Part shown: positions 6,977-28,743 of the stretch, piece by piece
How the letters are laid out: the number at the start of each line of letters is the position of its first letter
How positions within the stretch are numbered: the stretch's first letter is position 1
Source of the DNA: a virus
DNA: 31,621 bases
IMG/VR virus record: IMGVR_UViG_3300035698_006175
Span: 1-31,621 of that record
Direction: 5' to 3' (one strand)
Made by a program: the position numbers and the translations under genes
Notes under the pieces: generated by a model
Told to the model about the DNA's origin: nothing
Database searches by the model: none
The model's input: only the letters and a program-made list of their open reading frames with translations

Positions 6977-7824
6977 GCATCGCAGTATTCGGGAGCTTTG
7001 ATAGTTATTCTCATATGGGTAATTGGGTAGCCAATTCTTGGGAAGATAACGGGCATAAGGTAACTCGGATTGATAGGTCTAACCCTATACCAAAGGACGG
7101 TTATAGCATGATCATATTCACTGACTGTAGTGAAGACTACAGCTCCAAGATAACCGATACAAAAGCAATTAAGGTATTCTGGGCTATGGATACACACATG
7201 CCTACAGGTACTGAGAGAAGTGTAAATATTGCTAGGAAATGCGACATCGTATTTTCAACCAACTACGAACATGGTGTTAAATTGTTAGCTAAGTTTGGAA
7301 TAAAAAGCAACCTACTCCCAATCACATACAGTAACAGGCTTCTCGGTATGGAGGCAGAAGACATAATAAATCTAGATGTATGCATGATAGGAAACGCAAA
7401 TAGTGCTCAGAGATTAGACCTATGGAACATATTGAAGGCGTACAAGTCCTTTACAGGGCCTGCTAAGACGGCTCAGGACTATGTGAACGCAATGGCTAAC
7501 TCTAAGATAGTGATCAATCAACCAACCGAGCCGTGGGATATCATATTAAACAACAGGTTCTTTGAGGCACTGGCCTTTGGAAAGATACTATTGCAAAAGA
7601 GATTAAAAACTGATCTGATAGAAAAGTTAGGTTTCAAGGAAAATCAGGACTTCATATACTGGGATTCATTAGACGAGATCCCAGGACTAGTAGATCGTGC
7701 ATTAGAACATGAGTTTGACCATATTGGTATTGATAATGGAGTGCACAGGTACTCGATAAACGCACAGGTAAAGAAAATGGAAGATATAGTAATTTCTAAC
7801 TTTTACGATACTATCAATGTCTGA
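6961..7824 (+). CDS. CgeB-like glycosyltransferase
   Basis: A 287-residue GT-B type protein. The N-terminal half has a Rossmann-like start (IGIAVFGSFDSYSHMGNWVA) and KVFWAMDTHMP, with CDIVFSTNYEHGVKLLAKFG resembling the CgeB/DUF3880 family of spore-coat and phage glycosyltransferases. The C-terminal half has NSKIVINQPTEPWDIILNNR and FFEALAFGKILL, where the glutamate would contact the nucleotide-sugar donor. It is somewhat short for the family. A GAGGGGGAG Shine-Dalgarno stretch precedes the ATG at 6961, inside the end of the previous gene. Probably a glycosyltransferase of the operon; the sugar is not predictable. Confidence 0.72.
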   Translation: MEKQIGIAVFGSFDSYSHMGNWVANSWEDNGHKVTRIDRSNPIPKDGYSMIIFTDCSEDYSSKITDTKAIKVFWAMDTHMPTGTERSVNIARKCDIVFSTNYEHGVKLLAKFGIKSNLLPITYSNRLLGMEAEDIINLDVCMIGNANSAQRLDLWNILKAYKSFTGPAKTAQDYVNAMANSKIVINQPTEPWDIILNNRFFEALAFGKILLQKRLKTDLIEKLGFKENQDFIYWDSLDEIPGLVDRALEHEFDHIGIDNGVHRYSINAQVKKMEDIVISNFYDTINV

Positions 7825-10800
7825 GAAAAAAAGAGATGCAGAATTAAATGCCGATGAAATGAGAAGGCACTTCAGGATCGACGGTCCTATCAATCCCGCT
7901 AAACAGATAATGGGTCCAGAAGAGCGTGCAGCTATGATGGGGGTGATCGATTCAGAACATTTAGCAGAGGGTGAACAAGCGGAGTTATTTAGGAATTCCC
8001 TTAAAAAGTACCTAGGTGTGAGACATGTGACACTTGTAAACAGTGGGAGTAGCGCCAATCTAGCAGCCCTGATGTCCTTAACTACACAGTATGTCCCGGA
8101 AGAGAGAAGGTTAAAGCCGGGTGATGAAGTAATAACTACAGCTCTAGCCTTTCCGACAACAGTCAGCCCTATACACCACGCCAAGTGCGTACCAGTATTT
8201 GTAGATGTTGAGCCTGGTACTTGGAATATCGATCCTGAGCAAGTCAGGTCTGTTATTACTGATCGCACCAAGGTAATTATGGTAGCCCACAACTTAGGTA
8301 ATCCATTTGATTTGGCTAGCATAATACAGATTTGCGAAGAACATAACTTAACACTTATCGAGGATAACTGCCTGGCTGGTGAAGTCTTAGTGACCACAGA
8401 TAAGGGAGATGTACAGATAAAAGATATAAAAGTAGGTGATATGGTAATGACACGCTACGGTTATAGGAAAGTATTGGAGTCACAGAAGACAGGCACTAGG
8501 AAAGTTGTTTCTCCTTTCGGTGTACCAGCGACTACTGATCATCCATTCATAACAATAGAGGGAGTTAAACGCCTTGACGAACTAAGTCCATCTGATATAA
8601 TGTATGTATGGAACCCAAAGAAATTAATTACAGAGATAAAATCTTTAGAAGATATCCAAAGTCAAAGAAACATCACCTCCAGGTATACTATTGGAATGGG
8701 TCAGGGAAAAAGCGTGATTCATTACACAGGTGTACTTGGCGTGACATCAATGGTCCAATACCTCGGGGCCAAGTTATCCATCATAAGGACGGCAACCCTT
8801 TCAATAATCATATCAATAATCTTGAGTGTATGGAGAAAGGTAGACATCATAGTTACCACACCAACTTACCAGAAAATATTACAAAAGTTAAAAAGAATCT
8901 GGAACTTGCCAGGGAAGGTGCTAAAAAATGGCACAGAAGTCCAGAGGGGAGAAGATGGCATTCAGAACATGGAAAAGAAATATGGGCTAAAAAGAAACAA
9001 GTCACAGCAAAGTGTACCGTATGCCATAAGACTTATAAAACATATTTCCCATCTCGATCCAAATATTGTAGTCAATCATGTAAGGGAAAGGGTCGTAGAC
9101 GTTTACAATCTAAAGGTTGAGCAGCACAGCGAGTTCTTTGCAAATGGAATTCTTGTTCACAACTGTGATGCATTAGGCAGTGAGTGGAACGGTAAAAAAA
9201 CAGGAACAATAGGACACATCGGCACATCTAGCTTTTACCCTGCACACCACATATCCACAGGAGAAGGTGGTGCGGTGTACACAAATAATAGCGATATATT
9301 TAGAGGCGTTAGAGCAATGGTTAACTGGGGTCGAGACTGTTTTGTAAAAGGAACTATGATCACGACGGAGAATGGGTTGATCCCTATCGAACATATACAG
9401 GGTGGCGACCAAGTACTAACTAGATATGGTTATCAGACTGTCAATACTGTGATTGTGAAAGAAGGGAGGACTGACCTGGTTAGTATTAAGGCTGGGGGGT
9501 TTAAGCCTTTAACTACAACACCTGACCATAGGTTACTTGTACTAATGGAGGGGAAGTGGGAGTGGAGGGATGCAAATGACATAGGTGTTGGTGATAAATT
9601 AATGCTTAACCATGGAGTTAATAACTCCACTAGTATCGATAAAGACTTGATGTTTTTATCAGGGGTTTATCTGGCTGATGGTTGTTTGGTCAAAGGTAGC
9701 AAGGGTCCCAGTGGCTACAAAGGGAACAAGTACTATTACTATGCCGTAGAATTTAGTTTAAACAAATTGGAGACTAAACTTATTAAAAGGCTAGAAGATA
9801 TAGTACGCAGCCAATTTGGAGTAAGAAGTTATATCAGACAGGATAAGTCTACTAATGGGGTTAAGATTAGGTTTAAATCGAGGAGGTTATACGAATTTTT
9901 AATGGCAAGCTTTGGTACTGGAAGCCACAATAAATTTATATGGACAAACATACTTGAATCAGGCCCAACTCTGGCGCATTTATTATCAGGCTATTTCGAA
10001 GGTGATGGGTACAGAAACGATAAGAAGACTACAGTGGCTTCTAGTAATTTGGGGTTGATAACACAAATACAATCCATAATAGCTGCATTAGGTATTAGGT
10101 CTGGTATTAGCACTCAATCTAGACGACAGCCTATTGTAATTAATGGTAAGGTTGTGAAATCTGCGAAAGATTCCCATTCCCTAAATCTTTACGGAAGCTG
10201 GAAGCGATCCTTCGACCATATACTAGACAACCCGGAATGGGCTGCAACCCCTTCAGATTCGCCTACGGAACACATAGTGGAGAGTGTCAAACATTCTGAT
10301 TATAATGATTTGCTTTACGATCTATCTGTAGAGAACCACCACGAATACACCGCCAATGGTGTATTGGTACATAATTGTTGGTGTGCACCCGGTGAGGACG
10401 ATACATGTAATAAAAGATACGGGCATCAATTAGGCGATTTACCTTTCGGTTACGATCATAAGAACACCTATTCAGAACTTGGCTTTAATCTAAAAATGAC
10501 TGACATACAGGCATCAATGGGTGTTGTGCAAATGGAAAGGCTGCCAGGCTTTGTTGAGGCTAGACGCGAAAACCACGAATGGATGAAAAGTTACTTCAAA
10601 AGATGGCAACGTTTTGAGAATACGAAAGATTGGTTTGAGTTACCTGAGCAATATGAGGATGCAAACCCAAGTTGGTTTGGCTACGTTATCAAGCTCAATA
10701 ACGCACCTTTTGAGAAACAAGAATTCGTGAATTTTCTAGAGGAATACGGTATCAATAGCAGGGCATTTTTCTGTGGTAATATAACTAAGCAACCTGCTAT

Positions 10801-10963
10801 CCATGGGAGGGAAGGGATAACCTACAAAACTAGTGCAAGTTTGCAGGTAAGCGATGGCATGATGGAAGATGCTTTTTGGATAGGTGTACACCCCGGGATA
10901 GGTGAAAAGGAAAGAAGCTATATGGAGTTAGTATTTACAAGGTTTTTACAACAGTACATATGA
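7817..10963 (+). CDS. rfbH: RfbH/E1-type CDP-4-keto-6-deoxyhexose 3-dehydrase precursor with two inteins
   Basis: A 1048-residue precursor. Removing intein 1 (residues 185-449) and intein 2 (508-853) leaves 437 residues, the usual length of E1/RfbH. The DegT/DnrJ/EryC1 aminotransferase fold is clear (NSGSSANLAALM; TTALAFPTTVSPI; SSFYPAHHISTGEGGAV). In mature numbering D186 contacts the cofactor ring, Y209 is present, and H212 replaces the usual PLP-binding lysine, the signature of the PMP-dependent dehydrase. C185, C243, C245 and C253 give C-X57-C-X1-C-X7-C, the [2Fe-2S] pattern of E1. The enzyme removes the C3 hydroxyl of a CDP-4-keto-6-deoxyhexose and needs electrons from an E3-type reductase, which is not in the window. 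The gene overlaps its neighbours by 8 and 4 bases. Function is firm by residue pattern; the exact nucleotide sugar is inferred. Confidence 0.93.
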   Translation: MSEKKRDAELNADEMRRHFRIDGPINPAKQIMGPEERAAMMGVIDSEHLAEGEQAELFRNSLKKYLGVRHVTLVNSGSSANLAALMSLTTQYVPEERRLKPGDEVITTALAFPTTVSPIHHAKCVPVFVDVEPGTWNIDPEQVRSVITDRTKVIMVAHNLGNPFDLASIIQICEEHNLTLIEDNCLAGEVLVTTDKGDVQIKDIKVGDMVMTRYGYRKVLESQKTGTRKVVSPFGVPATTDHPFITIEGVKRLDELSPSDIMYVWNPKKLITEIKSLEDIQSQRNITSRYTIGMGQGKSVIHYTGVLGVTSMVQYLGAKLSIIRTATLSIIISIILSVWRKVDIIVTTPTYQKILQKLKRIWNLPGKVLKNGTEVQRGEDGIQNMEKKYGLKRNKSQQSVPYAIRLIKHISHLDPNIVVNHVRERVVDVYNLKVEQHSEFFANGILVHNCDALGSEWNGKKTGTIGHIGTSSFYPAHHISTGEGGAVYTNNSDIFRGVRAMVNWGRDCFVKGTMITTENGLIPIEHIQGGDQVLTRYGYQTVNTVIVKEGRTDLVSIKAGGFKPLTTTPDHRLLVLMEGKWEWRDANDIGVGDKLMLNHGVNNSTSIDKDLMFLSGVYLADGCLVKGSKGPSGYKGNKYYYYAVEFSLNKLETKLIKRLEDIVRSQFGVRSYIRQDKSTNGVKIRFKSRRLYEFLMASFGTGSHNKFIWTNILESGPTLAHLLSGYFEGDGYRNDKKTTVASSNLGLITQIQSIIAALGIRSGISTQSRRQPIVINGKVVKSAKDSHSLNLYGSWKRSFDHILDNPEWAATPSDSPTEHIVESVKHSDYNDLLYDLSVENHHEYTANGVLVHNCWCAPGEDDTCNKRYGHQLGDLPFGYDHKNTYSELGFNLKMTDIQASMGVVQMERLPGFVEARRENHEWMKSYFKRWQRFENTKDWFELPEQYEDANPSWFGYVIKLNNAPFEKQEFVNFLEEYGINSRAFFCGNITKQPAIHGREGITYKTSASLQVSDGMMEDAFWIGVHPGIGEKERSYMELVFTRFLQQYI
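8574..8601 (+). promoter_or_regulatory. candidate internal promoter for the nested HNH gene
   Basis: TTGACG (8574-8579), 16 bases, then a perfect TATAAT (8596-8601) preceded by TGA, giving an extended -10. The predicted +1 falls on about 8608, the A of the HNH start codon, so the transcript would be leaderless. It lies inside intein-coding DNA and could be fortuitous. Confidence 0.5.
8608..9120 (+). CDS. HNH homing endonuclease encoded out of frame inside intein 1
   Basis: A 170-residue, strongly basic protein in the -1 frame relative to the dehydrase/intein frame. Residues 49-75 form a canonical HNH domain (GPIPRGQVIHHKDGNPF then NNHINNLECM): H58-H59, D61, N63 and the later asparagines. The C-terminal part holds a zinc-finger-like pair, C136-X2-C139 and C154-X3-C158 (KYCSQSCKGKGRRR). 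It should cut DNA at intein-less alleles and promote intein homing. It has its own ATG and a TGA that ends inside the block F coding bases of the intein. Start 8608 is chosen because the frame is closed just upstream (TGA 8593-8595). No Shine-Dalgarno sequence is seen. Expression could come from the promoter-like sequence ending at 8601 or from -1 slippage at CCCAAAG (8614-8620). Confidence 0.85.
   Translation: MEPKEINYRDKIFRRYPKSKKHHLQVYYWNGSGKKRDSLHRCTWRDINGPIPRGQVIHHKDGNPFNNHINNLECMEKGRHHSYHTNLPENITKVKKNLELAREGAKKWHRSPEGRRWHSEHGKEIWAKKKQVTAKCTVCHKTYKTYFPSRSKYCSQSCKGKGRRRLQSKG
9338..10375 (+). mobile_element. intein 2 with in-frame LAGLIDADG endonuclease
   Basis: A 346-residue full-length intein between NWGRD and CWCAPG of the dehydrase. 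Cys1 begins CFVKGTMITTENG; block B is TTTPDHRLLVL. The endonuclease domain has two LAGLIDADG-type motifs, FLSGVYLADGCL and LLSGYFEGDGYR, each with the catalytic aspartate. The end is YDLSVENHHEY, then TANGVLVHN with penultimate His and terminal Asn, followed by the +1 Cys. It should splice and may home. Its splicing ends resemble intein 1 (TRYGY near the start, ANG-LVHN at the end), so the two splicing domains are related although their endonucleases are not. Confidence 0.95.
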
Positions 10964-26942: not shown

Positions 26943-27377
26943 ATGATGACATCTAGACACAAGAACTTCGCAGAAGCCTATGTTGCAAATGGCCGGAACG
27001 CTACACAAGCCTATAAATCCATCAGTCCCAAATCCACCGATAAAACAGCTGCGCAAGAGGGGATGGTATACCTTAGAAAACCTGGGATCGTAGAATATAT
27101 AAAAGAACTTGAGTCAGAGCTTTCAACAGAGCTTAAAATCACCAGAGAATCCATCCTAGCTGACTTCCAAGACATAAAGGACAGGAACCTCGATGGGAAT
27201 GATAAGGTGGCTATACAGGCACTACAGGAGCAAGTAAAGATGCTTGGGTTTTACGCTCCAGATAAGAACCTTAATTTGAACTTAGATGAGAAGGTTAAAT
27301 TAACTAATGAACACAAACGAGCTTTACAATCTGCTTTTGGAGAGTCCGGAAGCAAGGAAGGTAGCAGCGGAAACTAA
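26943..27377 (+). CDS. terS: terminase small subunit
   Basis: A 144-residue DNA-binding protein of the Terminase_2 type. It opens with the classic helix-turn-helix pattern (HKNFAEAYVANGRNATQAYK, then a second helix near KTAAQEGMVYLRKPGIVEYI) and ends in a coiled segment and an acidic tail. It recognises the packaging site and hands DNA to the large subunit. The large-subunit gene starts 71 bases inside this gene in another frame. Confidence 0.85.
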   Translation: MMTSRHKNFAEAYVANGRNATQAYKSISPKSTDKTAAQEGMVYLRKPGIVEYIKELESELSTELKITRESILADFQDIKDRNLDGNDKVAIQALQEQVKMLGFYAPDKNLNLNLDEKVKLTNEHKRALQSAFGESGSKEGSSGN

Positions 27378-28743
27378 CATAGCTTTCTTCGCTCGCTATT
27401 ATCTATCACACCACGTAAACACAGAACTGTCTGACCTACACAAGGAATGGACACAAATCATGCTGGACTACGACAAGATCGGTATAGCGGCCCCACGTGG
27501 GCACGCCAAGTCAACATGGTTCTCACTAGTGTATCCTTTATGGTGTATCCTATTCAAGAAGAAGAAGTTCATAGTATTGGTATCTGACTCGATGTCACAA
27601 GCCTGTGACCTATTAGGATCTATCACAGCGGAATTAGAAACTAACGATAAGATCATGAATGACTTTGGTAGGATTGCCGGATACATCCCACCAAGCGCAG
27701 CGGATAAGCAGAAGTGGTCTATGAAAGAGATAGTCACAACCACTGATATAAAGGTAGTAGCCAAATCATGGTCGTCCAGGATACGTGGTATTAAGCATAA
27801 GGAACAAAGACCCGACCTTATCATCACAGACGACTTAGAGAATGATGATAATGTCAGAAGTGAGGATCAGAGAGCCAAGGTGTGGAAGGTGTTTACAAGA
27901 TCTATTATGCAGATAGGTAGCCCAGATGTACAAATAATTATCGTAGGTACTATACTGCATTTCGACTCTCTGCTAATGCGGATACTAGGCAACCCACAGA
28001 AGGGCTGGTTTACTAAGCTTTACAGGGCAATAAATGAGGATAATATCCTGTTATGGCCTGAGAGGTGGACTATGGAACGGTTTGACGAGTTGCGCACAGA
28101 CCCAGCTCTCGGTGGTGAGGTCGGCTTCCAGCAAGAGTACATGAACAACCCGCTAGACCCATCACAACAAATTCTCAAGCCTATTAAGTACTATTCTGGA
28201 AACATTGATCTATCAATGGTAGTATGTTATGCATACATTGATTTGGCTATAAGCGAGAAGGAAACCGCTGATTACACAGCTATAACCACGATCGGTGTTA
28301 GTAAGAATGATGGTTCTATGAAGGTAATAGACCCAATTAGAAGGCGTGCAGGCATACTAGAGCAGCTGGATATGTTGTTTGACTACTATTCCAGGTACAA
28401 ACACCGTATAATAGGAGTAGAATCTGTAGCATATCAAAAGGCTTTCTACCAGATCGCTATGCAAGAAGGCAAGAAGAGAGGTATTTACTTACCGTTGGTT
28501 GAGGTGTTGGTTGATAAGGATAAGGTAAGAAGGGCGCAAGAGGTTGCACCATATGTAAATAACGGAACGGTTGAATTCAACACAGCGTATGTAGACTATA
28601 TGGCTGAAGTTATTCAATTCCCTAAGGCTGCTCATGATGACTGGGTAGATTCAACAGTCGGCGCTATCAGGATTGCACTAGATAATGGTGTGTCAAGCGG
28701 CAAAGGCGTGTTGTCAGCTAAGAAGTCATTTAATTATAAATAA
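27307..28743 (+). CDS. terL: terminase large subunit
   Basis: A 478-residue packaging motor. Walker A is APRGHAKST (residues 62-70) and Walker B LIITDDLE (171-178). The nuclease domain keeps its acidic residues at YIDLAIS (D312), IGVES (E372) and HDDWVDS (D444/D445, D448). It resembles the TIGR01630 family. The ATG at 27307 is the only one upstream of the FARYYLSHH block, so the 71-base overlap with the small subunit gene is real. It cuts concatemers and pumps DNA through the portal. Confidence 0.92.
   Translation: MNTNELYNLLLESPEARKVAAETNIAFFARYYLSHHVNTELSDLHKEWTQIMLDYDKIGIAAPRGHAKSTWFSLVYPLWCILFKKKKFIVLVSDSMSQACDLLGSITAELETNDKIMNDFGRIAGYIPPSAADKQKWSMKEIVTTTDIKVVAKSWSSRIRGIKHKEQRPDLIITDDLENDDNVRSEDQRAKVWKVFTRSIMQIGSPDVQIIIVGTILHFDSLLMRILGNPQKGWFTKLYRAINEDNILLWPERWTMERFDELRTDPALGGEVGFQQEYMNNPLDPSQQILKPIKYYSGNIDLSMVVCYAYIDLAISEKETADYTAITTIGVSKNDGSMKVIDPIRRRAGILEQLDMLFDYYSRYKHRIIGVESVAYQKAFYQIAMQEGKKRGIYLPLVEVLVDKDKVRRAQEVAPYVNNGTVEFNTAYVDYMAEVIQFPKAAHDDWVDSTVGAIRIALDNGVSSGKGVLSAKKSFNYK

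Follow-up and report, generated by a model that had tools for sequence, protein, structure and literature searches.

Fractured phage genes, in which a split intein interrupts the gene and a free-standing endonuclease lies between the two halves, were reportedly described by Dassa et al. in 2009 (NAR 37:2560). Canonical mobile inteins with an in-frame endonuclease are found in the terminase large subunit (TerL) of mycobacteriophages BAKA and Bethlehem (PMC5050341). A third kind of arrangement is the ShiLan domain, a hidden HNH in mycobacteriophage methylases (Arsenault, Gosselin and Gogarten 2025, PMC11855218; see also phage Applejack, PMC12613952). No intein or intron splicing element was found in the ShiLan insertion, which is thought to be retained in the protein (PMC11855218). 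The same paper cites a preprint by Gosselin, Arsenault and Gogarten (bioRxiv 2025.01.02.630785) for frequent overlapping frames in actinobacteriophages.

Here we analyse a stretch of 31,621 nucleotides of viral DNA (IMG/VR record IMGVR_UViG_3300035698_006175, hereafter the window), for which an earlier reading made from the letters alone, the sequence-only reading, had proposed that an HNH gene lies out of frame inside an intein. The nested layout is real and represents a little-described kind of mobile element, which occurs mostly in a DNA-packaging gene. With a probability of about 0.8 we read it as a mobile intein whose homing enzyme is separate from the spliced polypeptide, the HNH gene occupying the endonuclease site in another frame.

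Intein 1 and its nested HNH gene

The host gene (7817..10963, + strand) is a single unbroken ORF of 1048 codons that encodes a 3-dehydrase-like member of the DegT/DnrJ/EryC1 family (PF01041, E=8.5e-76), with a His replacing the PLP lysine ('HHISTGEGGA'). Its exteins are 327/432 identical to the gene of a syntenic phage, L003 (3974-5272), which is empty at both intein sites. The L003 sequence is unbroken across the intein 1 site, in the IEDNC|DALGS region, and this empty site was used to set the boundaries of intein 1 (265 aa, 8369..9163, + strand). The sequence-only reading had suggested a search for the same intein in relatives of the dehydrase, and a second phage contig, L002, does carry it, in the same gene, at the same site and with the same nested layout and offset; its HNH is 63% identical and its host ORF is unbroken. 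Intein 2 (9338..10375, + strand) lies outside the nested element and is an ordinary in-frame LAGLIDADG intein (PF14528 LAGLIDADG_3 and PF14890), the site of which is empty in both L002 and L003. Neither intein is present in L003 and only the first in L002, so that they move independently of each other.

Intein 1 has the motifs of a class 1-type intein, namely Cys1, a block B TxxH (TTDH), blocks F and G and a C-terminal HN followed by Cys (HN|C), and matches PF14890 Intein_splicing (E=1.3e-11). Residues C1, T55, H58 and N265 are invariant among 34 relatives. Foldseek matches its Hint fold to the gp41-1, DnaB and RecA inteins (E<=1e-3), the best match being the gp41-1 intein 6qaz (E=2.3e-6). In the AlphaFold model of the intein frame two confident Hint halves flank a filler with a pLDDT of 33-68. 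The N-terminal half comprises residues 1-86 (8369..8626, + strand; pLDDT 89-98 over residues 1-80) and the low-confidence filler residues 87-236 (8627..9076, + strand), where the other frame encodes the folded HNH. The C-terminal half, with blocks F and G, is VYNLKVEQHSEFFANGILVHN (9089..9163, + strand; pLDDT 93-97) and is homologous to the corresponding part of L002 and 93 other nested inteins. By motifs and modelled fold intein 1 is thus of class 1 type and is predicted to be active in splicing. As had been claimed, it lacks an in-frame endonuclease: a Pfam search of its frame returned Intein_splicing only and no endonuclease domain.

The nested HNH endonuclease ORF (8608..9120, + strand) runs from ATG to TGA (9118-9120), encodes 170 aa and is offset by 2 mod 3 from the intein frame. 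That this would be a complete out-of-frame gene with its own ATG and TGA, overlapped throughout by an open intein frame, is borne out by the ORF list, by a match to Pfam HNH_3 (PF13392; E=6.6e-11, 42.1 bits vs a cut-off of 24.8) and by the absence of stops from the host ORF. In L001, a copy of the window, a TGA is read in the HNH frame at 8593..8595 (+ strand), four codons 5' of the ATG, which limits any N-terminal extension of the HNH. At the other end, direct sequence reading shows that bases 9089..9120 (+ strand) code in both frames, for the HNH end (RLQSKG*) and the block F start (VYNLKVE); the stop of the HNH lies over bases that encode block F, as the sequence-only reading had it, with ..RRRLQSKG* over the ..VVDVYNLKVE codons. 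The HNH core consists of H40..H58-H59..N66/N67 and is accompanied by the Cys pairs C136/C139 and C154/C158. Among 42 relatives H58, H59 and H80 are invariant and N66, N67 and N71 near-invariant. The AlphaFold model of the HNH frame has a pLDDT of 96.6, with values of 91-99 over 8627..9076. In a profile search against solved structures I-HmuI (1u3e) was the sole match with E<0.01 (E=0.0017); it is also the top fold match, a weak one (TM about 0.26).

Two familiar layouts were rejected. A canonical intein with in-frame endonuclease does not fit intein 1, given the HNH offset of 2 mod 3. A group I intron ORF does not fit either, since a search of the window against Rfam for an RNA intron around the HNH gave no match and the host frame is open throughout.

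Distribution of the nested layout

Wide scans and profile searches were performed for the HNH and for both Hint halves, and the best 80 relatives per scan were considered; pattern scans used A2 and A3, not A1 (15 HNHs, too diverse). These best 80 relatives per scan contained at least 165 distinct HNHs, of which 115 are nested and leave the intein frame open (both Hint halves detected in 110), 19 separate the halves of a split intein, 30 are not surrounded by a Hint domain and one is unclassified; the queries were built from nested members and the counts are not population frequencies. The offset is identical in all 115 nested HNHs of this set, and reduction at 80% identity leaves at least 104 nested lineages of the same best 80 relatives per scan. 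In-frame homologues, or an origin by an indel pair, had been named as refuting observations; both were sought and neither was found, 0/165 HNHs (best 80 relatives per scan) being fused in frame with an intein. An in-frame ancestor with compensating frameshifts was rejected on the same count.

Where position was measured, in 93 relatives, ~90 codons separate Cys1 from the HNH start and ~23 separate the HNH end from that of the intein. All 93 inteins retain Cys1 and N|C/S/T junctions, a count that is not independent, as junction residues helped to delimit these inteins. Isolate phages TJE1, Highwayman and LS06 carry the nested layout within their terminase large subunit genes, and L004-L006 and L008, which were retrieved by similarity of the intein and host region and not of the HNH, contain a nested HNH as well. 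Sequencing or assembly error was rejected in view of the at least 104 lineages under 80% identity with three isolate genomes among them. The proposal that a free HNH gene colonised a mini-intein holds in so far as a free-type gene sits in a splicing-compatible frame; it is not unique to the window but recurs, mainly in TerL inteins. The TerL of BP10 was evaluated as empty-site partner of Highwayman and rejected, the two terminases being 26% identical (105/401).

Several further loci were observed. One terminase gene (L009:1880-5032) has two inteins, each harbouring its own out-of-frame nested HNH, and at L188:2463-3074 a same-family HNH has the same second frame open with no Hint domain detected around it. 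In Lactobacillus phage CL2 (L033, 455-2771) a split intein divides the terminase gene, with a same-family HNH between the halves, and the C-terminal half (IntC and C-extein, about 2487-2771) is unannotated; split-intein terminase genes with a same-family HNH also occur in L058, L082, L086, L110, L119 and others. Nested HNH inteins were also seen on contigs binned to a Methanimicrococcus MAG (L118), to Berkelbacteria and Patescibacteria MAGs (L122 and L124) and to Bacteroides and Parabacteroides MAGs (L116 and L117); the contigs binned to archaea or candidate phyla are presumably phage or prophage. Free-standing same-family HNHs lie near terminase genes, usually between terL and portal, in L016, L017, L030, L031, L032 and L034, and such genes are a possible source of the nested ones.

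Nested lineages are scattered over the HNH tree, with 16 label changes of which at least 5 are forced by strong branches; many other branches are weak, and it is on these that the number of origins and the nested-to-split direction depend. The named host families of nested HNHs are all terminase, except for the window and L002 (dehydrase), and these two DegT-hosted HNHs fall among TerL-hosted ones in the tree.

HNH proteins that assist terminase are known. They are also mentioned in PMC11855218. With nearly all nested hosts being TerL, and free-standing family members adjoining terL in PAE1, SN1, EauM-23 and others, the HNH might be a packaging-associated protein of the terminase neighbourhood that is parked in inteins, rather than a homing enzyme. 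We consider this unlikely. In the window and L002 the host of the HNH is a gene for a sugar-nucleotide dehydrase that lies far from terL, which in the window we take from its sequence to be 27307-28743. Moreover, the HNH occupies the canonical endonuclease position of an intein, and the intein-free L003 allele is without it. A homing function remains the preferred reading of the nested HNH.

Constraint on the two frames and translation of the HNH

The sequence-only reading had put the probability of chance openness near 3 in 10,000. This is too small: when synonymous codons of the window gene are shuffled, 3.5 stops are expected in the intein frame and P(open)=0.0025. Across the family, nested HNHs have 0 stops in the intein frame vs 5.6 expected upon recoding with free/split codon usage (P(open) about 0.004 per gene), and free HNHs show 6.9 stops in the same frame, with 6.9 expected. 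The remaining alternative frame has about 21 expected stops and is never open. The HNHs of this family contain many Lys, Asn, Arg, Asp and Glu residues, so that realistically a single alternative frame can be kept open, which is why the offset is always the same; for the other frame to be open, no codon followed by one for Lys, Asn, Asp or Glu, or by certain Arg or Ser codons, could end in T. The protein sequence bears a further mark of the overlap. Met followed by Lys, Asn, Thr, Ile or Met occurs at 0/187 Met in nested HNHs vs 21/73 in free and 19/45 in split HNHs, because such pairs force a stop in the open intein frame. This shows that the overlap shapes the HNH protein itself, in which Met does not precede any of these five residues.

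Substitutions were counted in 25 independent pairs and amount to 0.27/0.22/0.45 per site at HNH codon positions 1/2/3, with an identity of 64% in the HNH frame vs 44% in the intein frame. Between the window and L002 there are 55/43/88 changes at HNH codon positions 1/2/3 in the overlap and 31/21/43 by host codon position in the Hint-N flank, and on either side of the HNH the Hint halves show constraint in the host frame. The HNH frame is therefore conserved in sequence while the overlapping intein frame is merely kept free of stops, with the exception of the last 30 or so HNH bases, which also code for block F. Of the earlier claim that both frames are under selection, conservation of the HNH frame stands, and the intein frame over the HNH is selected for the lack of stops only; equal selection on both frames was rejected, that part of the intein frame being variable. 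Chance openness was likewise rejected, by the recoding tests together with the conservation.

A P(open) of 0.0025 is not negligible for a single genome, and taken alone it would leave room for a decayed passenger whose open frames were produced by chance or by faulty assembly. This seems to us highly improbable. Nested cases number 115 (best 80 relatives per scan) and include the isolate genomes TJE1, Highwayman and LS06, the HNH frame is under purifying selection, and the catalytic and zinc residues are near-invariant. We take these comparisons to refute the passenger reading.

An HNH start codon was found in 101/102 nested loci. Where a locus offers only one candidate ATG, a Shine-Dalgarno match of >=5 bases precedes the nested start in 25/79 cases, vs 6.5% of other ATGs (p=4e-11); the window's own ribosome-binding site is weak, with a best match of 3 bases. 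The enrichment supports internal initiation in general without proving expression in the window, and nested HNHs are, as a rule, likely to be translated separately from their own start.

The HNH could instead be made as a fusion to the N-terminal intein half by programmed -1 frameshifting, with no part for internal initiation. A slippery-type heptamer, CCCAAAG (a perfect X XXY YYZ), is present in the right (host) phase at 8614-8620, over HNH codons 3-4, and the frequency of such heptamers is mildly raised around nested starts (0.0095 vs 0.0056 per position upstream in the host, about 1.7 times). However, any such heptamer is seen in the start zone of 27/102 nested loci only, so that frameshifting was rejected as a general route, and according to sequence reading the CCCAAAG site is absent from L002. 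Furthermore, most nested starts are ATG (88/101), ribosome-binding sites are over-represented at them, and a stop usually closes the HNH frame shortly 5' of the start (median 13 codons; 4 in the window). Frameshifting is therefore quite improbable in our view, and internal initiation is the route assumed below.

Proposed mechanism and comparison with known systems

In the proposed mechanism a free HNH gene with its own start and stop would have come to occupy the usual endonuclease position of a mini-intein, between blocks B and F. Ribosomes on the host gene would translate the HNH region into a loosely folded loop, over which the two Hint halves would close to excise the intein from the dehydrase. 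Other ribosomes would initiate internally at the HNH ATG, as the starts and the enrichment of ribosome-binding sites suggest, and produce a separate HNH endonuclease. This enzyme could cut or nick intein-free alleles such as that of L003, whereupon repair would copy the whole intein with its HNH into the cut allele. Within the overlap the intein frame would be selected only to stay free of stops. Since the HNH is out of frame and has its own start and stop, homing would be decoupled from splicing. The HNH enzyme probably spreads the intein in which it is inserted; we infer homing from the empty L003 allele and the scattered hosts. An intein-frame stop before the HNH together with an internal start after it would yield a split intein with the HNH between its halves.

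It is conceivable, at slightly less than even odds, that inteins with an overprinted, independently translated HNH form a large and old class of phage elements, with an offset fixed by codon make-up, and that they gave rise to natural split inteins via one stop and one start. The layout bears on two open questions, the first acquisition of a homing endonuclease by an intein and the origin of split inteins. An overprinted endonuclease is spared folding inside the intein and needs only a stop-free frame, and the nested form is few changes away from a split intein whose halves flank a gene. Overprinting carries a visible molecular cost, seen in the avoided Met pairs and in a codon choice that keeps one further frame free of stops. 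The class is easy to overlook, because annotation pipelines predict a single long terminase or enzyme at such loci without the endonuclease, as happened in TJE1, Highwayman and LS06.

The sequence-only reading knew of no precedent. Partial ones exist in the intein-free ShiLan HNH and in genes fractured by split inteins, though none is identical. Our literature search found no paper that describes a whole intein with an out-of-frame HNH; priority is uncertain, since the preprint on non-canonical actinobacteriophage inteins (bioRxiv 2025.01.02.630785) may include cases like the terL of TJE1. ShiLan was absent among the matches listed in tblastn searches with these HNHs.

The described systems each share part of the layout. 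I-HmuI resembles the nested HNH in its HNH core and in being translated as a free-standing protein within a splicing element, but that element, a group I intron, is RNA, unlike the window's intein. The inteins of BAKA and Bethlehem, as well as intein 2, resemble intein 1 in splicing domain, in the location of the endonuclease between blocks B and F and in the preference for TerL, whereas their LAGLIDADG endonuclease is translated within the intein, unlike the nested HNH. Like the nested HNH, ShiLan is a complete out-of-frame HNH in an open host gene with homing-like spread, and the GTG reported for base 18 of its insertion places it at an identical offset, 2 mod 3 (PMC11855218). The window likewise has an out-of-frame HNH inside an open host gene, but, unlike in ShiLan, a splicing element is present, the HNH being surrounded by a full Hint splicing domain. 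With the Dassa type our family shares an intein-interrupted phage gene and a separate endonuclease gene, a layout seen as such in the 19 split-intein loci, and gp41-1 is the best fold match of intein 1. An endonuclease gene with its own start and stop lies between the intein halves in the window too; the host gene, however, is not broken into two ORFs there, and the nested loci in general keep one host ORF, with the endonuclease overlapping it in another frame. The nested class thus joins the ShiLan and the Dassa types, combining a whole intein with an out-of-frame endonuclease.
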